Virus record (IMG/VR): IMGVR_UViG_3300030419_007497
Location: 1-20,377 of that record
Length of the DNA: 20,377 bases
Direction: 5' to 3' (one strand)
Source of the DNA: a virus
The notes under the pieces were generated by a model, which worked only from the letters and a program-made list of their open reading frames with translations, searched no databases and had not been told where the DNA came from. The position numbers were made by a program, and so were the translations under genes. Below are positions 1,937 through 20,377 of this stretch, piece by piece (the first letter of the stretch is position 1; each line of letters opens with the position of its first letter).

Positions 1937-3136
1937 ATGAATATTAACGAAATAAAAAGACTGATTCAAGAAGTAAAGGTACAAGAAGCACTTCAAAGAG
2001 GAATCAGACAAGTACGGCACCCATTTAAGGCATTTTTTATTTTTGGACCTGCCGGTGCTGGAAAAACTTTTATAAAAGACGAGCTTGAGCTACCCGAAGA
2101 ATTTATAAGCGTCAACACAGATGAGGCTGTTGAACGTGTTTTTCCAAAATATGATTTATCACTTAAGTTTGACGAAGGTCCACAGCAAATAAAACAAGAG
2201 CTAAGGAAATTGTTGCAACAGGCAACATTTAACGAGACTCAAACTCAAGTTAACAAATGTAAGCCGCTTTTGTTTGATACGCCCGGTGAAAAAACAGGCA
2301 AAATTTATAAGATAGTCAGAGCACTGGTTGAGATTGGATACGATGTCGCGATATTTCAAATCAATGTCCCTCCCGACTATTCAGTAGAGTCTGATCGGAA
2401 ACGAGGGGAAGAAGGAGAGCGATCTGTTGGTTCAAAAAGAACAAGAAAGATTGCTAATGACTATCAAAAAAGAGTTGTTCAAGGAGGGGCTTATTATCAG
2501 CTTGGTCAGGAGCGAGGAGTGACTCTTCTTTCTGACAAAATATATCCAAATGTCTTTAACGTGGAGACGGGCAAAATTAGAGGCGACTTTGATCCAGAGG
2601 AGCTACAACAAAAGTCATTGCTACTTAAAGACCCAAAGGGAAAAAAGGAGCCTGAAAAAATCCAAAATTCATTCCGAGGAGTGACTTGGGAAGATGCTAG
2701 TGTTATATTAGAGGAGGCAAAAACTGGATTGTCCGAATGGCTATCTGATAAAACACCAAACAACCCCACGGGTAAAGTGCTTTATGATGCACTCTCATAT
2801 ATTCAGGAGCAAGGGGTTGGAAACTTAGGCGACGAACTTACTGATATAGCTCAGTTCGCAGGTTATGCGGCGATTAATGATGTTGAATTACCAAGAGAGG
2901 TTGAAGAGGCTCTATATATCACTGTCAACGTAAAGAGCAAGCTCGCGAAAACGCAGCCACCAGAGAAGAAGCCAGATTTTGACCCGAGATATTCTCCACT
3001 GAAGGTGCCCTATAAAGGTCCGGCTTATACAAAACCAGGGGCACCAACTGCTAAAGACATTGTTAAGGAAGAGAAGCTTGAGATGCAGCAGCTAAGAGAA
3101 TTTGTTTCTAAGTTTAATAAAAAAAATAAGATTTGA
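1937..3136 (+). CDS. P-loop NTPase / zeta-toxin-like kinase family phage protein
   Basis: 399 residues. A Walker A motif GPAGAGKT lies at residues 37-44 after a hydrophobic strand (AFFIF). Further on are FDTPGEKTGKIYKIVRALVE (about 111-130) and a strand YDVAIFQINVP followed by SDRKRGEEGERS, an arrangement like zeta-toxin and related small-molecule kinases with an Arg-rich lid. The C-terminal third is charged and Pro-rich (PPEKKPDFDPRYSPLKVPYK), without a recognised domain. The N-terminus (MNINEIKRLIQE) is short, amphipathic and ends in I-Q-E, similar to prohead protease sites, so it might be a targeting peptide. The ATG has no Shine-Dalgarno and sits 28 bases after an ACTATTTAT motif. The P-loop is certain; the substrate is unknown. 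Confidence 0.8.
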   Translation: MNINEIKRLIQEVKVQEALQRGIRQVRHPFKAFFIFGPAGAGKTFIKDELELPEEFISVNTDEAVERVFPKYDLSLKFDEGPQQIKQELRKLLQQATFNETQTQVNKCKPLLFDTPGEKTGKIYKIVRALVEIGYDVAIFQINVPPDYSVESDRKRGEEGERSVGSKRTRKIANDYQKRVVQGGAYYQLGQERGVTLLSDKIYPNVFNVETGKIRGDFDPEELQQKSLLLKDPKGKKEPEKIQNSFRGVTWEDASVILEEAKTGLSEWLSDKTPNNPTGKVLYDALSYIQEQGVGNLGDELTDIAQFAGYAAINDVELPREVEEALYITVNVKSKLAKTQPPEKKPDFDPRYSPLKVPYKGPAYTKPGAPTAKDIVKEEKLEMQQLREFVSKFNKKNKI

Positions 3137-3189: not shown

Positions 3190-3489
3190 ATGAAAGCATG
3201 GGCTTGGCGTCGTGGAGACGAAGGAAACTATTGTGTACAAATAGAGAACATTAAAGGTAAAAGAAAATTAAATAAGGTTTTAAAACTATTATCAGACTGG
3301 AAGGTTATTAGCGATGGGTACAATCCAAAAACCGAGGAATATACATATATCTTTGCAAAGAGCTTTGCCAATACAAATAAGTGGCTTTCATGGGCTGAGA
3401 AATTTCCGGTGCATTTGACAGAAACAACCTCTCATGGCAATGAAAAGGTTAGAAACAAAAACTTGATTAAAAAAGGCATGCTATTATGA
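3190..3489 (+). CDS. small protein of unknown function upstream of clpP-like gene
   Basis: 99 residues. I chose the ATG at 3190 because AAAGGAG lies at 3177-3183. A longer frame from TTG at 3133 would begin inside the promoter's -35 box and has no ribosome site. The protein starts MKAWAWRRGDEGNYCVQIEN and has alternating charged and hydrophobic stretches (KLNKVLKLLSDWKVISDGY; TYIFAKSFANTNKWLSWAEK), a compact alpha/beta pattern. I recognise no family. It overlaps the ClpP-like gene by four bases, so the two are probably co-translated from the promoter at 3133. Confidence 0.75.
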   Translation: MKAWAWRRGDEGNYCVQIENIKGKRKLNKVLKLLSDWKVISDGYNPKTEEYTYIFAKSFANTNKWLSWAEKFPVHLTETTSHGNEKVRNKNLIKKGMLL

Positions 3490-4178
3490 TTTTTCCAATG
3501 CAATTTGCTAGAAAAAAGAAAGAGGACACAACTGAAGAAGAGCCTGTTGATGGTGAAGCTTCACCAGAAGAAGAAGGGCTCACAAAGGTCACAAATGTAA
3601 TCGAGAGAAAGGAGGAGGTTCCTCGTACTGTTGGTATTTGTGGCGATCTAGATGAAGAAAAGGCAGGCGAGCTTTTATATGGTATGATCTCTCTATATGA
3701 AAGCGGAATCACCTATTCCCTGAAAGATCCCGAGGATGAAGATTCTGATATTTTGGTATCATATCGCCCTTTTGAATTCATTATCTCCACTCTGGGGGGT
3801 AATGCCCAAGAAATGTTTGGTATTCATGATATGATGAGGGTTCTGAGAGAAAAGTGTGAAATTCACACCATTGGCTTGGGAAAGGTTTTTTCAGCGGGAA
3901 CTCTACTGCTTGCTTCTGGTACAAAGGGAAAACGCCGTATTGGTAAAAACTGCCGTGTCATGATCCACAGTGTTCTTGGCGGAAATCACGGTTCTCTCCA
4001 TAATCTTGAAAATGAGATGGACGAGATTCGTTGGACGCAAGATCGCTATATCGAAGCAATGGTTGAAGAGACCAATATGAGCAAGGCACATTTAAAAAAG
4101 ATTCTTAACCGAAAGGTTAATGCTTACTTCACCGCAGAAGAAGCTGTAGAACTTGGTATTGCGGATATTGTATTTTAA
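3486..4178 (+). CDS. ClpP-like serine protease (S14 fold) with altered triad
   Basis: 230 residues, starting in an ATGA overlap. Residues 1-45 are charged and not part of the fold. From about 47 the ClpP fold is clear: STLGGNAQEMFGIHDMMR (101-118), the nucleophile region LGKVFSAGTLLLASGTKGKR (Ser136), MIHSV (His161) and YFTAEEAVELGIADIV at the end. In E. coli ClpP the third triad residue is Asp, two residues before the FLSAPEAV block. Here the aligned residue is Asn212 (KVNAYFTAEEAV). Ser and His are conserved, so activity may be low, altered or rely on another acid. The protein could be a host-like Clp subunit or act on phage head proteins; the sequence does not decide. Confidence 0.88.
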   Translation: MIFPMQFARKKKEDTTEEEPVDGEASPEEEGLTKVTNVIERKEEVPRTVGICGDLDEEKAGELLYGMISLYESGITYSLKDPEDEDSDILVSYRPFEFIISTLGGNAQEMFGIHDMMRVLREKCEIHTIGLGKVFSAGTLLLASGTKGKRRIGKNCRVMIHSVLGGNHGSLHNLENEMDEIRWTQDRYIEAMVEETNMSKAHLKKILNRKVNAYFTAEEAVELGIADIVF

Positions 4179-5970: not shown

Positions 5971-6771
5971 TTGAAATCCCCACTACGTTACCCAGGCGGC
6001 AAAAGCCGTGCTGTGAAACATATACTTCCGCACTTTCCAGAGGATATCCGAGAGGTGTGTTCTCCGTTCTTGGGCGGAGGCTCAATTGAATTAGCTTTGG
6101 CGGAGAAGGGCATCCAGGTTTATGGGTATGACACCTTTGAACCATTGATTTGGTTTTGGCGTGCACTACTTGGAAACCCCGAGGCGTTGGCAAAAGAGGC
6201 AGACTCGCTCAGAAAATATAAAGACTACTATTACGGACACCGAGGATTGCCCAAAGACGACTTTAATTTAATTAAGGAAGAGTTGAGAAACGAAAAAGAA
6301 TATTCTCTTCAAAACGCAGCAAAGTTTTACGCTCTAAATCGCTCCTCTTTTTCGGGTGCAACTCTTAGTGGTGGGTGGTCCAAGCGAGCATCATATGAAA
6401 GATTTACTGACTCTTCAATTACCAGGGTGAGAGAATTTAGCCAGCCCAAATTGTATGTTGCCGCACAGCACTTTAAGCATTCGATCCCGGCACATCCAAA
6501 AACTTTTTTATATCTTGATCCTCCTTATCTTTTAGGTAAGGATAGAGAAAACCTTTATGGAAACGCAGGGAGCAAGCATAAAGGGTTTGACCATGCTGGC
6601 TTGGTGAATATATTAAAGGAACGAGATAATTGGATATTATCTTATAATAATTGTCCAGAGATATTGAAACTCTACGAGGGGTATGATATTCTATATCCAG
6701 ATTGGAAGTATGGAATGTCTTCGGACAAGGACTCTAAAGAAGTATTAATAATCAACAAGGGAAACAAATGA
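5971..6771 (+). CDS. DNA adenine-N6 methyltransferase, Dam/D12 class
   Basis: 266 residues. I place the start at TTG 5971 because CGGAG lies at 5961-5965 and the protein then begins MKSPLRYPGGKS, the usual start of D12-class enzymes. The longer frame from 5905 would overlap the upstream gene by 56 bases and add an unrelated N-terminus. The SAM-binding motif is SPFLGGGSIELALA (31-44) with YGYD at 51-54, and the catalytic motif IV is DPPY at 183-186. The NRSSFSGATLSGGW segment (123-136) is in the usual target-recognition area. It transfers methyl groups from SAM to adenine N6. Specificity (often GATC) is not readable here. It may protect phage DNA from host enzymes or from the putative nuclease upstream. 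GroEL overlaps its end by four bases. Confidence 0.92.
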   Translation: MKSPLRYPGGKSRAVKHILPHFPEDIREVCSPFLGGGSIELALAEKGIQVYGYDTFEPLIWFWRALLGNPEALAKEADSLRKYKDYYYGHRGLPKDDFNLIKEELRNEKEYSLQNAAKFYALNRSSFSGATLSGGWSKRASYERFTDSSITRVREFSQPKLYVAAQHFKHSIPAHPKTFLYLDPPYLLGKDRENLYGNAGSKHKGFDHAGLVNILKERDNWILSYNNCPEILKLYEGYDILYPDWKYGMSSDKDSKEVLIINKGNK

Positions 6772-8336
6772 CAAAAAAATATTGTTCAAATCAAGATTTA
6801 CAATCAAAGATATTAGAAGGAGTTGAGTCATTAGCTGATAACGTAGCGACAACTCTTGGTCCCAAGGGGCGTAACGTTATTTTGCAAGAAGCCGGAAAGC
6901 GACCAATCATTACAAAAGATGGTGTGACAGTAGCTAAGTTTGTTGATTTTGAGGATCCGTTCATGAACGCAGGTGCTCAAGTAATCAAGCAGGCAGCAGA
7001 GCAAACAAATTCCGATGCCGGTGACGGCACCACTACCACGACCATTTTGTGCAGAGCGATTTTGCAGCATGCCCAACGATATATTACAGCAGGTGTTTCC
7101 CCAGTTGAATTGAAGAGAGGTATTGATAAGGCAGTTAAGGTAGTAGCCAATAGCCTGGAGGATCAAGCTCGTCCCATTGCATCACTTGATGATATCAAGA
7201 GGATAGCAACAATTTCTGCAAATGGAGATGAGGTCATCGGTAATCTTATTGCCACCGCTGTGGATCAATCAGGCAAAGATGGGGCAATAATAATTCAAGA
7301 AGCACGGTCTGTGGAAACTTCATTAGATTTGGTCGAGGGTTTTCGTTTGGCATCAGGCTGGGCAGCGTCGGCTTTTATCACAGACGAGCACACCGCTATG
7401 ACAAGGTACGATAATCCGCTTTTTCTTGTTACTGATGAAAAAATTGAAAGAGTGGAACAAATCCTCCCAGTACTGGAAGTTGTTGCAAGGGAGGGCAGAC
7501 CTCTTGTTATTTTTGCGGAAGAAGTTGAAGGTCAAGCCTTAGCTGCTTTAATTATGAATACAGTGCGAGGCACGATGAGAGTTGCAGCAGTCAAAGCTCC
7601 TCTATATGGAGAAGAACGTCGCGGTATTTTAGAAGATTTAGCAATTTCTACAGGTGCCACTTTTATCAATAGGTTGAGCGGAATGAAAACTCAGGAAGCC
7701 AAGCTTCAGGACTTGGGTGCAGGTAAGAAAATTGAAATTAGTAGATATGCAACAACAATCATGGGCGGAAAGGGCGACTTTGATGAGGTCGAAAAAAGAA
7801 TTGAGTCGTTAAAATCCCAATTGGCTGAAAGCGAAGACCTACACATATGTGAAAGAATTCAAGATAGGATCACTAAATTAGCATCTGGAGTTGCTGTTAT
7901 AAAAGTTGGCGGCACCACGGAAGTTGAGATGATTGAGAGACGCCACCGAATTGAAGACGCACTTGAAGCAGTTAAGTCGGCTCAGCAGGAGGGAATCGTT
8001 GCCGGAGGCGGTGTAGCCCTCCTTAGAACAGCAAGCACCCTAGATATAGAAACTGATAATGAGGAACAGGCTTTAGGTGTTGAAATTGTCAAGGAGGCGG
8101 TCCAGGCACCCATTAGACAGATGGCTATTAATGCTGGAGAGTCACCAGATCTAATTGTTTCTCGCCTGAACAAAGAGGGTGAAACATGGGGATACGATTT
8201 TTCTACAAGAGAGCTTGAAGACATGATAGAAGTTGGTATCATTGATCCGGCTAAAGTGACAAGATGTGCTCTGCAAAATGCCGCCTCTGCGGCAGGTACT
8301 TTAATTACAGCAAATTATGCCATCATACAATGCTAA
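6768..8336 (+). CDS. groEL: GroEL-type group I chaperonin (phage-encoded)
   Basis: 522 residues, ATGA overlap with the methyltransferase gene and AAGGG at 6757-6761. It has the chaperonin signatures: ATTLGPKGRNVIL (28-40), ITKDGVTVAK, DAGDGTTTTTIL with the nucleotide-binding Asp, the apical domain (EGFRLASGWAASAFI; KAPLYGEERRGILEDLAI), and VGGTTEVEMIERRHRIEDAL with the Asp used for ATP hydrolysis, then GIVAGGGVALLR. Bacterial GroEL is about 548 residues with a Gly-Gly-Met tail. This one stops at ITANYAIIQC, so the flexible tail is missing. The usual GYxSPYF apical segment is changed to GWAASAFI. No groES is in the window. It folds phage or host proteins during infection, possibly virion proteins. 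Confidence 0.96.
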   Translation: MTKKYCSNQDLQSKILEGVESLADNVATTLGPKGRNVILQEAGKRPIITKDGVTVAKFVDFEDPFMNAGAQVIKQAAEQTNSDAGDGTTTTTILCRAILQHAQRYITAGVSPVELKRGIDKAVKVVANSLEDQARPIASLDDIKRIATISANGDEVIGNLIATAVDQSGKDGAIIIQEARSVETSLDLVEGFRLASGWAASAFITDEHTAMTRYDNPLFLVTDEKIERVEQILPVLEVVAREGRPLVIFAEEVEGQALAALIMNTVRGTMRVAAVKAPLYGEERRGILEDLAISTGATFINRLSGMKTQEAKLQDLGAGKKIEISRYATTIMGGKGDFDEVEKRIESLKSQLAESEDLHICERIQDRITKLASGVAVIKVGGTTEVEMIERRHRIEDALEAVKSAQQEGIVAGGGVALLRTASTLDIETDNEEQALGVEIVKEAVQAPIRQMAINAGESPDLIVSRLNKEGETWGYDFSTRELEDMIEVGIIDPAKVTRCALQNAASAAGTLITANYAIIQC

Positions 8337-11449: not shown

Positions 11450-11884
11450 ATGAACAACACAATCACACCTTTGAGAACATCTTTTGGAAGCCCAATTGGC
11501 GGCTTCTTGGCAGATCGCTTCTTTGACACAATTTTTGATGATGTGCCCTTTTATGGCACTACCACCACAAAACGCACGAAGGGAATCAGCGTTAACTATA
11601 ATGTTGAAAAGATAGATAACGGATTTTCTATTGCTGTAGCAGCCCCAGGCGTTAACAAGGACGATATTAATGTAAATATTGAATCCAACACAATTACAAT
11701 TTCCTATACACAAGAAGAGAAAAACGAATCCTCCTTTGCTTGCTCTTCATTTAGTCGCTCTTGGCGACTTCCAGAGGGGACAGAAGTAGAAGACATTACC
11801 GCTACGTATGAAAATGGTATTTTGACACTTTCTATTCCCACCGCAGGTGCTAAAGCTTATACTCGCACAATTACAATTAAGTGA
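11450..11884 (+). CDS. small heat-shock protein, HSP20 / alpha-crystallin family
   Basis: 144 residues, AGGAGAAG at 11437-11444. The N-terminal 40 residues are hydrophobic and variable (FLADRFFDTIFDDVPFYG). The alpha-crystallin domain runs from about 45 to 135: VNYNVEKIDNGFSIAVAAPG, VNKDDINVNIESNTITISY, FSRSWRLPEGTEVEDITATY and ENGILTLSIPTAGA. The A-x-x-x-n-G-I/V-L-x-[LI]-x-[IV]-P signature is present. These proteins form oligomers and hold unfolding proteins without ATP. HSP20 genes are common in marine T4-like phages. The gene stands alone between its own promoter and terminator. Together with GroEL it suggests that the phage invests in protein folding. Confidence 0.95.
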   Translation: MNNTITPLRTSFGSPIGGFLADRFFDTIFDDVPFYGTTTTKRTKGISVNYNVEKIDNGFSIAVAAPGVNKDDINVNIESNTITISYTQEEKNESSFACSSFSRSWRLPEGTEVEDITATYENGILTLSIPTAGAKAYTRTITIK

Positions 11885-14668: not shown

Positions 14669-15907
14669 ATGCTTAAATATATAAAACATCGACAGAAGCA
14701 GTGGGAAAAAAAGTGGGAAGAAGAGGAGAAAAGGATAGCAGAGGAGGCTGAGAAAGAAGAGGCACGAATTGCTGAAATGCAAGCCCAAGCTCGCCACAAA
14801 AAACTTCTTATCGAACAACAGGAAGCCAAACGTCTGCGACAAGAAAGTCTTCAAAGGCAACAAGAGCTATCAGAAGAAAAATGGGATAAACATTTTGACA
14901 CTTTGTTATCTCAGATAAAAGACCAATTCCAAAAGAACAATAATGACAAGCTTGCTGAAATAAGGGTTATAATTCAAAGCCGTGAACCTTCTCTTGAAGA
15001 GCTTGATTGGGATAGTTGGCTGACTGACCCTCTTAATCAAAGGTTAGCTGATTTAGATTTTGAACATGCGATGGAAATGTTTAAGCGTGATAACCTGCTG
15101 GCAAAACGACGACGACGCACTGGTGGCAAGAAAAAATCTATTTCAGACAATTATTTCTTATCATTTACCGGAAATTCAGCCGTAGCTACAAGAGCCTATG
15201 ATCATGTAACAACTGACTTTAATCCCGATGATTATGATCTTAATTTAGGATTTACTGTTTCTTATTGGGTTAGACCAGATGAAGTGGGAAATACTATGTT
15301 TGCATTTGGTAGAAAGCATAACAATGATCAGCGATTTACATTTGGCATTAATAGAAAACGTCAAGGATACTTCGGCGTTGGGCCCAATAAAAATGCAACA
15401 GCGTGGGTCAACATGGACACTCCAGTAGAAGAATCATTGTTAGTTCAAGACGGTAGCTACTGGAATCTAAAAACAGACGGCACTTGGTATCATTTTGTAG
15501 TAACATATGATGACCGTTCAGATACATCTTCGAATGCTGAACGTAAAATATATGTAAACGGTGTGCTTCGACATACAAACGACTTCAATTGGAATAGTAC
15601 AGGTGGCGGAACTGGTGGTATATATTTTGGTGGCCGTAATCTAACTGGTAATTATAATAATGGATGGGCTTGTGGTCTTGATGAAGTAGCTATTTATGAT
15701 ACAGCCAAAGATTCTAGTTGGGTTGCAAGTGTATATAGTGATGAAACTGGCTATGACCATACAGGTCAAAGTGGTCTTGTAGGATATTGGAAATTTAATG
15801 AAGGTAGCGGCACTACTGTTACAGATCATTCTGGAGAGGGTAATCATGGGACTTTTGCTCCCATTTCTGGAGATACAACAGCCTTTCCAACTTGGGAAGA
15901 AAGATGA
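14669..15907 (+). CDS. coiled-coil plus LamG/concanavalin-like domain protein, probable receptor- or glycan-binding virion protein
   Basis: 412 residues; the ATG follows the previous stop without a gap. Residues 1-110 are a long coiled coil rich in Glu, Lys, Arg and Gln. A basic linker (AKRRRRTGGKKK, about 145-157) follows. From about 160 to the end is a LamG-type jelly-roll: NYFLSFTGNSAVATR, LGFTVSYWVRPD, TWYHFVVTYDD, KIYVNGVLRHT, GLDEVAIYDTA and GLVGYWKFNEGSGTTVTDHS, the last being the usual motif of that family. Such domains bind glycans or proteins and are common in tail fibres or head decorations. No transmembrane segment or signal peptide is visible. Its stop overlaps the next start as ATGA. 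Confidence 0.85.
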   Translation: MLKYIKHRQKQWEKKWEEEEKRIAEEAEKEEARIAEMQAQARHKKLLIEQQEAKRLRQESLQRQQELSEEKWDKHFDTLLSQIKDQFQKNNNDKLAEIRVIIQSREPSLEELDWDSWLTDPLNQRLADLDFEHAMEMFKRDNLLAKRRRRTGGKKKSISDNYFLSFTGNSAVATRAYDHVTTDFNPDDYDLNLGFTVSYWVRPDEVGNTMFAFGRKHNNDQRFTFGINRKRQGYFGVGPNKNATAWVNMDTPVEESLLVQDGSYWNLKTDGTWYHFVVTYDDRSDTSSNAERKIYVNGVLRHTNDFNWNSTGGGTGGIYFGGRNLTGNYNNGWACGLDEVAIYDTAKDSSWVASVYSDETGYDHTGQSGLVGYWKFNEGSGTTVTDHSGEGNHGTFAPISGDTTAFPTWEER

Positions 15908-17076
15908 AACTCCTCTTTGAAAATTGGCGAGGGTTTATTAATGAAATAGCAATCGGGCAATGCTATCCGCATGCCAACAAGATGGCGAACAAGTGGCTGG
16001 ACAATCATATTGACCGGTCTAAGCCCCCAGGCAAAGGAGTCCACCCAGATATTGATAATAAAGACAAATTCAAAGTTGTTCACGGGAGGATAACTGATAA
16101 GTTTTCTGGCGAATCAGTTGAGCACGCCTGGGTTGAGATGGGTGATGAGGTGTTTGACTGGCAAACCAGCACCACAAAGCCTGAAGGGATCCCAAAAGAA
16201 GTCTATTATGATTTATTCCAACCCGAAGTGTTTGTAGACTATACAGCACAAGAGGCAATCACCAATTGTATGAAGGCGGGACATCATGGTCCTTGGAATG
16301 AAGCTTCGGATTTTCAAGCAAGAATGAAAAAACAACTACCTGGGGAGCTTGATTTTCTTATTGGAAAGGGTGGGAACAATACCAAGGTGGGTCCAGGCGT
16401 AAAGAATCCCAAGAAGCCAAAGTTTAAAAGTGCCCCCCCTGGTACAGCCCCTGTTGGAGAGGCAGCAGGCGAGTGCCAAGTGATCACCGTGTTGCGATTG
16501 GGAGGCGAGGATGGCTTAGCAAATCGCAACGCAGCAAATGTGGAGGGCTTACAAGAATACGTTGAAAGCGCAACAGATATGGAGGGTGGTCAATTCGGCG
16601 GTGGCAACATGGCAGACCGAAATGTTTATCTTTATAAAGTTGAGGTCTGCGGGGGTTTTGGTGATTATAAACCGGTTGCAGGAGGCACGAGAGATGCCGA
16701 CACTGAGGCAGAAACACCTGTAGGGCTAAAGGAGTTTTATGGTGGAGACTTCCAGTGGTTTTATTTTCCGCAAGAGAGTGAGGGCAAGTCCTGGCGTATA
16801 ATTGAAAAAGTTGGCGTAATCAAGAACTTTATAGACGATCCTGTGTGGGAACTGTATGGAAGCGGAAAGATTAAAATAAACAAAAAACCCCTTTTGGATC
16901 TCGTAAAACATAAACCAAAGAAAAATGCATTTACAAAAGATGAAAGAGAATACGTTCCCGACGAACACGAGGAGCTTCCAAGCGTTTGGAAACACCCTTG
17001 GGAATGGGACGCGGGTGTTATTGCTCTAAAGCACTATTTAGATAATGTCTATGACATAAAACAAACGGGGACTTGA
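15904..17076 (+). CDS. putative papain-like cysteine peptidase with capsid-targeting-like N-terminus
   Basis: 390 residues. ATG 15904 overlaps the upstream stop as ATGA; a TTG-started longer frame (15892) would add only four residues and hide the shared peptide. It begins MKLLFENWRGFINE, matching the other targeting-like N-termini and ending in I-N-E, a T4-type prohead protease site. A Cys-His-Asp order follows: GQCYPHA (Cys20), VVHGRI (His60), EHAWVEMGD (His74) and FDWQTS (Asp85), a pattern of papain-like/NlpC-type peptidases and amidases. A Lys/Pro/Gly-rich linker (about 155-190) leads to a second domain (GECQVITVLRLGGEDGL; VYLYKVEVCGGFGDYKPVAG; WRIIEKVGVIKNFI) that I cannot name. I infer an enzyme packed in the head and released in the host. 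Catalysis is unproven. Confidence 0.7.
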   Translation: MKLLFENWRGFINEIAIGQCYPHANKMANKWLDNHIDRSKPPGKGVHPDIDNKDKFKVVHGRITDKFSGESVEHAWVEMGDEVFDWQTSTTKPEGIPKEVYYDLFQPEVFVDYTAQEAITNCMKAGHHGPWNEASDFQARMKKQLPGELDFLIGKGGNNTKVGPGVKNPKKPKFKSAPPGTAPVGEAAGECQVITVLRLGGEDGLANRNAANVEGLQEYVESATDMEGGQFGGGNMADRNVYLYKVEVCGGFGDYKPVAGGTRDADTEAETPVGLKEFYGGDFQWFYFPQESEGKSWRIIEKVGVIKNFIDDPVWELYGSGKIKINKKPLLDLVKHKPKKNAFTKDEREYVPDEHEELPSVWKHPWEWDAGVIALKHYLDNVYDIKQTGT

Positions 17077-17670: not shown

Positions 17671-18096
17671 GTGAAACTTTTAATTGAAAATTGGCGTAAG
17701 TTTATTCAAGAGGCAAAACACCTTGTTTGCCCCAAGCCCACACAGGATCTTGAACTAAACACCAAGAACCGCAACGCAGCTATTCAAGCAGAACATATTC
17801 AATATGGACCTCTTAATCTTGAGGATGAGGAATACTGGGTGCGTGCCGCCGAGCACTGGAACACTGCACCCGAAATCGCGAAAAAATCTAGATGCTCTAA
17901 CTGTGTAGCTTTTGATGTCTCGCCGCGAATGAAAGAGTGTATGCCAGGATCTGTTCAAGAAGATGGGCAACTCGGATACTGTTGGATGCATCACTTTAAG
18001 TGCCATTCTGCAAGATCTTGCTACACCTGGGCAGCAGGTGGTCCAATTGATGACGATAAGGTTTCATATGAATGGCAAGAGAAGGGTAACAAATGA
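17671..18096 (+). CDS. Cys-rich HiPIP-like protein with capsid-targeting-like N-terminus
   Basis: 141 residues from a GTG start without Shine-Dalgarno. It begins MKLLIENWRKFIQE, then AKHLVC, the targeting-type peptide with an I-Q-E end. After a variable stretch comes GPLNLEDEEYWVRAAEHWNT, then a Cys cluster: RCSNCVAFD (C-x2-C), KECMPG, LGYCWMHHFKCHSARSCYTW. The spacing and the final C-x-x-W resemble high-potential iron-sulfur proteins, which hold a 4Fe-4S cluster; extra Cys are present. I recall very similar Cys-rich proteins in marine T4-like phage virion gene sets, without a proven function. An iron-sulfur or zinc role is inference. It overlaps the next gene by ATGA. Confidence 0.7.
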   Translation: MKLLIENWRKFIQEAKHLVCPKPTQDLELNTKNRNAAIQAEHIQYGPLNLEDEEYWVRAAEHWNTAPEIAKKSRCSNCVAFDVSPRMKECMPGSVQEDGQLGYCWMHHFKCHSARSCYTWAAGGPIDDDKVSYEWQEKGNK

Positions 18097-19259
18097 GCAA
18101 TTATGAAGAAAACTGGAAAAACTTCTTAAAAGAAGGTTGCTGGGAAGGCTACGAGCAGAAAGGTATGAAAAAGAAGGGAGACCGAATGGTTCCCAACTGT
18201 GTGCCGATATCCGAAGAAACTAGAGACACCTACGGTTCTGAAGTTGTGGATCGCAATAAGAGATCTGTTGAAAAAGGATCTAAAAAATTAGGTCTTGAAG
18301 AAAAAGATGACCGTTGCACCCGCATCGCTAAACGAAAATATGATGTTTGGCCTTCTGCATATGCCTCCGGTGCTGTTGTCAAGTGCCGCCAAGGTAAAAT
18401 CTGGAAAGGAGTTAAAGAAGGAGAAGAGCCGGGACTAGAGATTAAAATCAGAAAAGCTTTGCGTGATGAGGGTGGTGCCGCAGGAATGGATGCTCTTGTA
18501 GACCATGCCGAAGCCTCAGAGTCAGATATTAAAGCCGCTATCAAAGATATGGACGATGTTGGACAACATAAGAATGGCGATTATATTTTAGATGATGGAG
18601 AAGATATTGATATCTTAGAAGAAGATCTTCGCAAGTGGTTTGGTCGCAAAGGCGAGAAAGGAAGCAAGGGCGGCTGGGTAGATTGCAACGCTCCTGATGG
18701 CGAGGGTGGCTATAAAGAGTGCGCCCAGGGCGACAGGAAGAAAAAGCCCGCTTGTCGTCCAACACCATCTGCCTGCAAAGATCCTGGCAAAGGCAAGAAA
18801 TGGGGAAAGAAGGCAACCAAAGAGGCATTGAATATGAAAATTACAAAAGAAGAGTTGGAGCAAATCATTTTTGAAGAGGTAAAGGAAGTTTACTATGAAA
18901 CTTTTATCTTTCCTCACTTAACAGAAGCATGGCTAGAAGATGGCACACCTGTTTGTACCGGGTGTTTGCATGAACTGTTGAATGAAGCATCTTGTGATTG
19001 CCCTCACTTAGTTTATGAGGCAGAGTATCGTGGACGAAAAGTAAAACTTAACAAGCCAATGCGAGGCGATGTTAAAAAGTTTAAAGTATACGTCAAAGAC
19101 CCTAAGACCGGAAATATTAAAAAAGTCAATTTTGGACAAAAAGGCATGAAAATCAGAAAAAGTAATCCAAAAGCTAGAAAATCTTTTAGAGCCCGTCATA
19201 ATTGTGACAATCCCGGTCCAAAAACAAAGGCACGGTATTGGTCCTGTAAGAAGTGGTAA
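18093..19259 (+). CDS. modular basic Cys-rich protein, probable internal virion protein
   Basis: 388 residues built from several small modules. 1-14: MSNYEENWKNFLKE, a looser targeting-type peptide ending L-K-E. 16-37: CWEGYEQKGMKKKGDRMVPN module. 74-106: RCTRIAKRKYDVWPSAYASG, then VVKCRQGKIWKG. 112-180: an acidic winged-helix-like stretch (IKIRKALRDEGGAAGMDALV). 181-237: WFGRKGEKGSKGGWVDCNAP and PACRPTPSACKD. 248-303: MKITKEELEQIIFEEVKE and a Cys cluster (VCTGCLHELLNEASCDC). 318-388: KLNKPMRGDVKKFKVYVKDP to HNCDNPGPKTKARYWSCKKW. I recall several of these as repeating modules in marine phage structural proteins. The basic charge suggests contact with packaged DNA. Roles are inferred. Confidence 0.75.
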   Translation: MSNYEENWKNFLKEGCWEGYEQKGMKKKGDRMVPNCVPISEETRDTYGSEVVDRNKRSVEKGSKKLGLEEKDDRCTRIAKRKYDVWPSAYASGAVVKCRQGKIWKGVKEGEEPGLEIKIRKALRDEGGAAGMDALVDHAEASESDIKAAIKDMDDVGQHKNGDYILDDGEDIDILEEDLRKWFGRKGEKGSKGGWVDCNAPDGEGGYKECAQGDRKKKPACRPTPSACKDPGKGKKWGKKATKEALNMKITKEELEQIIFEEVKEVYYETFIFPHLTEAWLEDGTPVCTGCLHELLNEASCDCPHLVYEAEYRGRKVKLNKPMRGDVKKFKVYVKDPKTGNIKKVNFGQKGMKIRKSNPKARKSFRARHNCDNPGPKTKARYWSCKKW

Positions 19260-19265
19260 CTCGCT

Positions 19266-20291
19266 ATGAAACTTATACTTGAACATTGGCGAAATTTCTT
19301 ATCAGAAGAAGACACTCGTTATGACGAGGACGGCAATGTATTACCACCCCTACCGCCAGAACATGCAGTGGCCATTAAAGAAGCTGGAATGGTGTTAAAC
19401 AAATTCCTTGGCGAAGGCAAGATGGGAAAAGTATATGAAGTTGAGGATCCAAAAACGGGACAACGGATGGCGGCAAAAGTCGTATCAAAACACACTCCTC
19501 AGTATTATAACGAGAGCAAAAACTATAATTGGATACTTAAGAACAGGGAAAGCCTTCCCGACGATGTTAAAGAATATGTGGTGGATGTATATAAATTGTT
19601 TGAGGACTCAAGCAATAAATATTTAGTTATATTAATGGAGCTTCTTAAGCCTGCTCCAAAAAATGTTGTAAATCAAATATTTGGTTCGTTAGAATACTCG
19701 CCTGAAAAAGAAGAAAGGTTATTAAAAGACCCCACCGCAGTATATGAAATTGTATTTGATGTACTTCAGAAAAACAATATGCTTAATTCAGCTAATCAAT
19801 ATAGGGGCGTGAGTCAGAGCGATAGAAAAAAAGCAGCAAAAACAATTCTTAGAACTTACTTGCTGGACAAAGAGATTCCAAAACCAAAAACAAAAAATGT
19901 AGATTCATTCTTAGAGCTTTATCAATTATCCGGGGCTCAATGGCAGAGACTATATGATGCAATTGTTATAGAGATAGAATCACTTTTAGGAGACGTGGAC
20001 AGATCTGTCGTCTGGGCTGCCGCCGAAGCGGTAGAAAAAGATTTGCATTACTATATTAATAAACAAGTAATTCCAATGACATATGGAACAGGACGAGGAC
20101 ACCCGTTAAGTGGTGCAGGTCCAGGGGTATCTGAAGTGTTCCCAGAAATACAAGGCTTTGTCAACGCAATGAAGCAGCTTTCGCGAAAAGGATTTAACCC
20201 ACGAGACATGCATACAGACAATGTGATGATGCGTCCCGACACAAACCAACTAGTCATGACCGATGTCGGCTTATTCCTGGTGACAAGATGA
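19266..20291 (+). CDS. atypical protein-kinase-like protein with capsid-targeting-like N-terminus
   Basis: 341 residues; the ATG lies seven bases after the previous stop. It begins MKLILEHWRNFLSE, with a likely L-S-E processing site. The N-lobe is kinase-like: glycine loop FLGEGKMGKVYEV (47-59), AAKVV with the ATP-binding Lys71, a possible helix-C Glu83 and a hinge YLVILMELLK (119-128). The catalytic loop appears late as NPRDMHTDNVMMR (311-323, Asp314 and Asn319) and the metal-binding Asp is in MTDVG (Asp333). The protein ends eight residues later, so a normal C-lobe after the DFG-type motif is missing, while about 180 residues are inserted between hinge and catalytic loop. It could phosphorylate host proteins after injection. 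Kinase fold is moderately sure; substrate unknown. Confidence 0.78.
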   Translation: MKLILEHWRNFLSEEDTRYDEDGNVLPPLPPEHAVAIKEAGMVLNKFLGEGKMGKVYEVEDPKTGQRMAAKVVSKHTPQYYNESKNYNWILKNRESLPDDVKEYVVDVYKLFEDSSNKYLVILMELLKPAPKNVVNQIFGSLEYSPEKEERLLKDPTAVYEIVFDVLQKNNMLNSANQYRGVSQSDRKKAAKTILRTYLLDKEIPKPKTKNVDSFLELYQLSGAQWQRLYDAIVIEIESLLGDVDRSVVWAAAEAVEKDLHYYINKQVIPMTYGTGRGHPLSGAGPGVSEVFPEIQGFVNAMKQLSRKGFNPRDMHTDNVMMRPDTNQLVMTDVGLFLVTR

Positions 20292-20377
20292 AACTCCTAT
20301 TTGAAAATTGGCGAGAGTTTGTAAAGCAAGAGGTAGAAGAGTTTCTGCCACACGGAGAAGTGCGAGCAGTTGAGAAG
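20288..20377 (+). CDS. start of another protein with the targeting-like N-terminus (cut by window edge)
   Basis: Thirty codons are visible, beginning with ATG 20288 in an ATGA overlap with the kinase-like gene. The protein begins MKLLFENWREFVKQE and then VEEFLPHGEVRAVEK. Its first 33 bases differ from those of the gene at 15904 at only two positions, after which the two diverge. The product cannot be named, but the N-terminus places it with the putative internal virion proteins. Confidence 0.85.
   Translation, partial: MKLLFENWREFVKQEVEEFLPHGEVRAVEK

Follow-up and report, generated by a model that had tools for sequence, protein, structure and literature searches.

How can a gene product carry the ATP-binding and catalytic residues of a kinase and yet stop just after its metal-binding motif, and why should such a protein begin with a peptide resembling a targeting signal? 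These questions are raised by a gene at positions 19266..20291 (+ strand) of IMG/VR virus record IMGVR_UViG_3300030419_007497, from an uncultured marine virus of bacteria. The stretch analysed, hereafter the window, comprises 20,377 bases. The gene starts with ATG and encodes 341 amino acids, as indicated by the open reading frame (ORF) listing, by Pfam and PHROG matches and by an AlphaFold2 (AF2) model. A first-pass annotation had described the product as a kinase-like protein lacking a C-lobe, tagged for the virion and injected with a logic analogous to that of T4 Alt.

Judged by its sequence, the product is a protein kinase. Pfam Pkinase (PF00069) matches residues 45-128 with an E-value of 5.1e-9, above the curated cut-off, and phrog_18305, annotated 'kinase', matches residues 290-337 (E 1.2e-7), so that the kinase likeness goes beyond chance; the best phmmer match to solved kinases has an E-value of 3.5e-4. 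All the motifs named in the annotation are present, each on the + strand. The N-lobe (residues 45-128, 19398..19649), modelled with its strands and helix C, holds the glycine-rich loop GEGKMG (residues 49-54, 19410..19427), the VAIK lysine Lys71 (19476..19478), the predicted helix-C glutamate Glu83 (19512..19514, within model helix 80-96) and the hinge ILMELL (residues 122-127, 19629..19646), which the alignment and the model place with MELL at 124-127. Further on come the catalytic loop RDMHTDN (residues 313-319, 20202..20222), with Asp314, His316 and Asn319, and the metal-binding DVGLF (residues 333-337, 20262..20276; TDVG being residues 332-335), with the chain ending four residues later.

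Eleven positions (Gly51, Gly54, Ala69, Lys71, Glu83, Glu125, Asp314, His316, Asn319, Asp333 and Gly335) are identical in 30/30 aligned relatives, a selected set into which long-tailed members were entered by their kinase part only. Since the catalytic loop and DxG served to find these relatives, the full identity there is partly due to selection, which does not apply to the N-lobe residues. Pkinase matches 28 of the 30. The distance from the hinge glutamate to the catalytic aspartate ranges from 173 to 229 residues across the alignment and is 189 in the window kinase (Glu125 to Asp314), in agreement with the roughly 180 first reported. Compared with the eukaryotic-like Ser/Thr kinases of PF00069, the window kinase shares the N-lobe and the catalytic residues (glycine loop, VAIK lysine, helix-C glutamate, catalytic Asp, Asn, and the Asp and Gly of DxG), whereas it has eight helices after the hinge and lacks both the catalytic-loop lysine and, after DxG, the activation segment, the APE motif and helices F-I.

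Ser/Thr kinases carry a lysine two residues after the catalytic aspartate, where small-molecule kinases have a histidine. In the window kinase this lysine is replaced by His316, as in 30/30 members, which makes a small-molecule substrate conceivable. The DxHxxN loop with its invariant histidine resembles the APH/ABC1 pattern, Pfam ABC1 weakly matches 3 of the 30 members (best E 3.1e-4), and the protein has neither an activation segment nor a P+1 loop. Even so, we regard it as unlikely that a tag-packaged kinase acts on a nucleoside, a polyamine or an antibiotic-like compound as APH-type kinases do: the N-lobe is best matched by Pkinase, the fold matches among those listed are protein kinases, and the same DxHxxN occurs in T7 gp0.7, a Ser/Thr protein kinase according to PMC4858673.

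The next gene, of which the window holds the start only (20288..20377, +), begins with an ATG at 20288 that shares bases with the kinase stop (ATGA); because this start codon sits within the stop, the 3' end of the kinase gene is genuine. The N-terminus of that gene, MKLLFENWREFVKQE, is of the kinase's own kind, with the tag MKLLFENWREFVKQ and a Q at residue 14. C-terminal truncation by a frameshift or an assembly error was considered and is ruled out by the ATGA overlap and by relatives that stop at the same place. The last residue lies 8 positions after Asp333 and 6 after Gly335, so that the eight residues originally counted hold from the aspartate and not from the glycine. Tag-bearing full-length relatives mostly retain 1-8 residues after DxGLF, the exceptions having 107 residues after DxG (L054/L026) or 77 (L042). 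Since this build recurs in the IMG/VR relatives, and T7 gp0.7 ends similarly (TDxxxF), the short end is a family trait and not a truncation. A catalytically dead pseudokinase or a decaying gene is a hardly credible explanation: the chain is indeed far shorter after DxG than canonical kinases, but the eleven kinase positions are intact in 30/30 relatives, one intact copy is present in each of 10/10 contigs (fetched because they carry the kinase), and gp0.7 is an active precedent (PMC4858673).

What takes the place of the missing C-terminal region was addressed by structure prediction. The AF2 model built on the 30-row alignment (pLDDT 88.4, pTM 0.81) has a canonical N-lobe, followed by about 160 residues with eight helices (132-139, 146-154, 156-168, 171-180, 184-199, 210-219, 224-241 and 246-265) between hinge and catalytic loop, the first of them at the place of helix D; a further helix, 293-307, runs into the catalytic loop, and just four residues follow DxGLF. 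This helical stretch (residues 132-292, 19659..20141, +) is alike in the second subfamily described below. With helices 132-265 and 293-307 modelled ahead of the catalytic loop, the prediction is of a lower lobe made of helices, in which the insertion would supply C-lobe helices, the alternative that the first-pass annotation had proposed to check. Its statement that the C-lobe is lacking holds for the canonical parts after DxG, which are missing; in the model, however, the lobe is not simply absent, as a helical set precedes the catalytic loop while the canonical set after DxG is gone. The fold is also not one without an ATP site, since the Lys71-Glu83 N-lobe and the DxG/Asn pair are modelled together. 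With VIA-align 2, run against 999 PDB chains, the best match was CDKL1 (4agu; Z 13.7, rmsd 3.1, 146 residues aligned), and protein kinases were found throughout the best rows listed, in which rows within 1 Z unit count as tied. Because only chain residues 2-151 of the 277 in 4agu align, the likeness covers the first half of the kinase fold and ends at DxG. The best BFVD match was A0A516M7K3 (816 aa, TMq 0.65). Residues 1-20, which include the tag, are modelled with low confidence (pLDDT 52-58).

T7 gp0.7 and its relatives (phrog_2828, phrog_15752 and phrog_18305) have the N-lobe, the DxHxxN loop and TDxxxF in common with the window kinase and, like it, no activation segment or helices F-I recognisable by sequence. 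In T7 gp0.7 DMHSGN is followed by TDPVSF and then by a Lys/Arg-rich stretch (146 residues after the TDP aspartate), while the 'kinase protein' of Stenotrophomonas phage DLP6 (188 aa; phrog_15752, a gp0.7-type family, E 9.7e-67) stops 3 residues past that aspartate and the kinase of Caulobacter phage Cd1 12 residues past it. The Lys, Asp, His, Asn and TDP positions are in register in 8/8 aligned gp0.7-type proteins, of which the Erwinia phage member was clipped at the match end, making its tail length meaningless. The profile of the window-kinase family aligned by hhalign with the gp0.7 family over the N-lobe (prob 94.8%, E 5.4e-8, 85 columns) and with the DLP6 kinase over the catalytic end (95.5%, E 1.3e-8), and weakly with T7 gp0.7 alone (41.7%); these matches cover one lobe at a time, with no single alignment across both halves.

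Several features set the two apart. The distance from the lysine to the catalytic aspartate is 102 residues in T7 gp0.7 against 243 in the window kinase (71 to 314), a far bigger insertion, and DxG is degenerate (DPV) in gp0.7 whereas it is intact here. gp0.7 has a basic tail, as does the second subfamily, whereas the window kinase ends four residues after DVGLF without a C-terminal basic shut-off domain; such a domain is not universal in the gp0.7 family, since DLP6 and Cd1 have none. Finally, gp0.7 is synthesised early after infection and bears no such tag. PMC4858673 reports serine phosphorylation of RNase III by the purified T7 kinase and assigns the activity to the N-terminal ~30 kDa. A phage kinase can therefore be active even when the canonical region that follows DxG is missing. 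From these sequence comparisons, the window kinase is probably a distant relative of gp0.7 that would work in a similar way, rather than a proven member of its family.

Reduced kinases are also delivered by bacteria: in PMC7943720 and PMC13395416, the effector kinases OspG, NleH and SteC are described as having an absent activation loop or a depleted C lobe. These are secreted bacterial effectors, whereas the window kinase is a phage protein. SteC retains the substrate-contacting helix F, while in the window kinase the chain all but ends at DxGLF and the helices precede the catalytic loop. OspG and NleH were absent among the best structural rows listed, which is no evidence against a relation.

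Relatives were found in IMG/VR by a catalytic-loop/DxGLF pattern (27 loci) and by an alignment query (45 loci), two lists that overlap, and all carriers found are uncultured. A single-sequence search of IMG/VR gave no close relatives of the window kinase, tblastn against GenBank phages gave no match at E up to 1, and 30 stretches of cellular genomes retrieved with one peptide pattern contained no relatives, which does not exclude cellular ones. A second subfamily (L009, L010, L002, L022, L052, L058 and L059) has N-termini that differ from the tag and often long basic tails: some 260-430 Lys/Arg-rich residues follow DxGLF, with repeats such as KxIKVKxLxE that resemble further N-termini, perhaps because the product is a polyprotein cut inside the head. 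Its AF2 model, based on its own 15-row alignment (pLDDT 81.5, pTM 0.76), shows the same order of elements and aligns with MK2 (Z 13.0, rmsd 3.9, 149 residues). In one further locus (L039:3192-5486) the catalytic end continues in frame for about 730 residues, with the N-terminal part encoded in a different frame, which probably reflects a frameshift or a gene fusion in that contig.

The second question concerns the first 14 residues of the kinase (19266..19307, +; MKLILEHWRNFLSE), which we propose to be a capsid-targeting propeptide with an L/I-x-E consensus at residues 12-14, here LSE. The suggestion that this N-terminus is targeting-like gained statistical weight in the window itself, where the tag, with the consensus MKLLxENWRxYLxE, has 4 exact pattern matches against 0.01 expected, a number reached in 0/100 shuffles. 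Besides the gene following the kinase, tags are borne by the neighbours at 15904..17076 (MKLLFENWRGFINE; no Pfam or PHROG match) and 17671..18096 (KLLIENWRKFIQE; GTG start, tag pattern match), and a variant by the immediate upstream neighbour at 18093..19259 (MSNYEENWKNFLKE; matching only PHROGs of unknown function), all on the + strand. Across 10 kinase-bearing contigs the pattern (codons 1-9) occurred 34 times, in 9/10 contigs, with up to 7 matches per contig and always on a single strand per contig, against 0 matches for the reversed control pattern. A looser pattern matched 255/1500 ORFs, compared with 1/1500 when the N-termini were shuffled.

At least 275 distinct translations begin with the tag, and at least 256 were left after filtering, which removed 10/275 under 60 aa and 9 prefixes and excluded loci L105-L108 (DLP6, T4). 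They fall into at least 123 sequence families, defined by single linkage at E < 1e-4 on the sequence following the tag; an earlier, smaller clustering with a different cut-off had given 40 families from 82 proteins. As the search patterns largely fixed residues 1-9 and in part codons 10-11, only residues 12-14 are independent of them. At these positions L/I at 12 and Glu at 14 are combined in 86/123 family representatives, against 15/327 untagged ORFs (>=150 aa) from the same loci; 37/123 families are without L/I-x-E exactly at residue 14, 27 of them without even [LIVMF]-x-E there.

A search with tag DNA gave only weak matches in cultured phages (E 0.7-8, none covering 80%), and no T4-type marine phage isolate with tagged genes was found among 50,697 phage records. 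For two other tagged proteins, GenBank phages yielded relatives in 3 uncultured megaphage records for one and in none for the other. Within the open PMC literature, outside which most subscription papers and bioRxiv lie, the string 'MKLLLENW' had 0 matches, the 8 matches to shorter strings were by title unrelated to phages, and no description of the tag or of the kinase family was found.

A precedent for such a peptide exists in phage T4. According to PMC9026906, the gp21 protease cuts after L/I-x-E, packaging of IPIII requires its first 10 residues, and tagged proteins are located initially in the prohead core; in the same paper a capsid-targeting sequence is presented that lets T4-like phages package various proteins; the principle of capsid targeting is therefore not new. 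IPs and Alt with such propeptides enter the host, according to PMC7411985. As in the T4 system (IPI-IPIII, Alt and gp21), a short N-terminal peptide ending in L/I-x-E is carried here by unrelated proteins, and related contigs have head genes of T4 type, with a protease of gp21 type and a capsid protein of gp23 type. The two systems differ in that T4 puts its targeting peptide on three IPs and Alt, whereas one 14-residue tag is found here on at least 123 families, and in that the tag sequence is unlike the N-terminus of T4 IpI.

The prohead protease of T4-gp21 type (PF03420) was present in 7/10 kinase-bearing contigs and the Gp23 capsid protein (PF07068) in 6/10; the 3 contigs without the former and the 4 without the latter are all records of 94-103 kb. 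No gp21-type protease was seen in the window itself, a 20 kb fragment. With the looser pattern, tag-like proteins lie near the protease gene in 4/7 protease loci of about 3 kb. In Flavobacterium phage immuto, which has the nearest cultured protease (45%), 0/56 ORFs of the stretch analysed match that pattern. In our reading the tag is a capsid-targeting sequence, and the kinase a gp0.7-like protein that would be packaged in the head and injected. The nearness to the protease gene, together with the prohead core being the first site of tagged T4 proteins (PMC9026906), also fits a head-assembly protein that phosphorylates core or capsid in the infected cell or prohead and is not ejected. This is distinctly unlikely in our estimation, because the tag also stands on Nudix, exonuclease, nucleotidase and nucleotidyltransferase domains, for which a role in assembly is not evident, and the T4 IPs and Alt with such propeptides are ejected (PMC7411985).

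The capsid-targeting reading also has to account for the DNA of the tag, whose codons 3-6 and 9 are far more uniform than the genes' own codon usage would lead one to expect, an effect that fades by codon 13. This uniformity would suit a 5'-end translation element, or the peptide could be an amphipathic address to another phage compartment. Either seems very improbable, given that residues 12 and 14, which the patterns left unfixed, yield the T4 protease consensus at the frequencies given above and that protease and Gp23 occur in related contigs. As a capsid signal, the tag may instead owe its uniformity to exchange. An identical 27-mer is common to 14/123 unrelated families; where the sequence extends far enough upstream (243 tag starts), the stop of a preceding ORF is nearby in 202 cases, and the tag start shares 4 bases with it in 104; and directly after one kinase gene there is a bare tag of 11 codons and a stop (L011:6329-6361, - strand), which looks like a leftover of cargo exchange. 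From the uniform codons, the common 27-mer, the overlapping starts and the bare tag we infer that cargo genes may be exchanged by recombination at tag DNA, early-codon translation constraints being the alternative.

The tagged proteins belong to several domain types. When 20 other tagged proteins, drawn from the 40 families of the smaller clustering, were scanned against Pfam, 5 scored above the curated cut-off: a Nudix protein, an RNase_T exonuclease, a cytidylyltransferase-like protein, a tRNA-ligase CPD-like protein and an NT5C nucleotidase. An NT5C-like nucleotidase is tagged at L041:14221-14805 and has another N-terminal peptide in phage immuto (5155-5754). A different recurring type of N-terminus (like MKITKxxLxxIIxEE) was noted near prohead protease genes (L068:286 and 1067; L070, - strand; immuto 8487) and, within an ORF, in the window gene 18093-19259; it is possibly a second targeting peptide. 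The window also encodes a Zeta-toxin/AAA-type kinase domain (1937-3136; Pfam E 1e-7), a second possible phosphotransferase, a ClpP/head-maturation-protease-like protein (3486-4178), a GroEL-type chaperonin (6768-8336) and an Hsp20 (11450-11884).

Taken together, the data lead us to a scheme that we hold to be somewhat better than an even bet, in which the kinase is loaded into the head, loses its tag by a cut after LSE14, is injected and immediately phosphorylates host proteins. It builds on what sequence and model provide (an intact gene, the catalytic set, its layout, the sharing of the tag, the position of the cleavage consensus and the T4-type head genes of related contigs); packaging, cleavage, injection, activity and substrates are the steps it adds. 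Synthesis of the kinase would be late, its 14-residue tag would direct it into the head of a T4-type marine phage, a T4-gp21-like prohead protease would remove the tag after L-S-E14 at head maturation, and the mature kinase would enter the host along with the DNA. It could then phosphorylate host proteins ahead of any phage gene expression, whereas T7 gp0.7 acts after its synthesis. The N-lobe would bind ATP (Lys71-Glu83), Asp314, Asn319 and Asp333 would serve catalysis, and the helices between hinge and catalytic loop would form the lower lobe and substrate platform in place of helices F-I and the activation segment. As the protein has no such segment, it cannot be switched by phosphorylation in the ordinary way. 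The earlier idea of an injected, virion-tagged protein with the logic of Alt is thus well supported by comparative sequence, with packaging and injection as its presumptive part.

On a wider scale, and with about equal chances of being right or wrong, marine T4-type phages may possess a modular 'injectome', in which a movable 14-residue tag sends more than 100 unrelated proteins into the capsid. Its cargo would include the kinase, Nudix, exonuclease, nucleotidase and nucleotidyltransferase proteins and many unknowns, with the tag moving as near-identical DNA between head-to-tail genes; the gp0.7-like kinase, whose rebuilt C-lobe would precede the catalytic loop, would be one item of this cargo, serving takeover from the moment of DNA entry. 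Capsid targeting was known from T4 and a shortened kinase from gp0.7; what is new, within the open PMC literature, is that the two are combined, that the insertion is enlarged and that so large a set of proteins bears the tag. If this is true, the tag would be a sequence rule for listing the injected proteins of T4-type phages from metagenomes alone, where four injected proteins (IPI-III and Alt) have been described for T4 itself, and time-zero delivery by large phages would become directly testable, starting with the kinase. Alongside T7 gp0.7, the window kinase suggests that the canonical activation segment and helices F-I may be dispensable, which bears on how small or how rearranged a working kinase can be.
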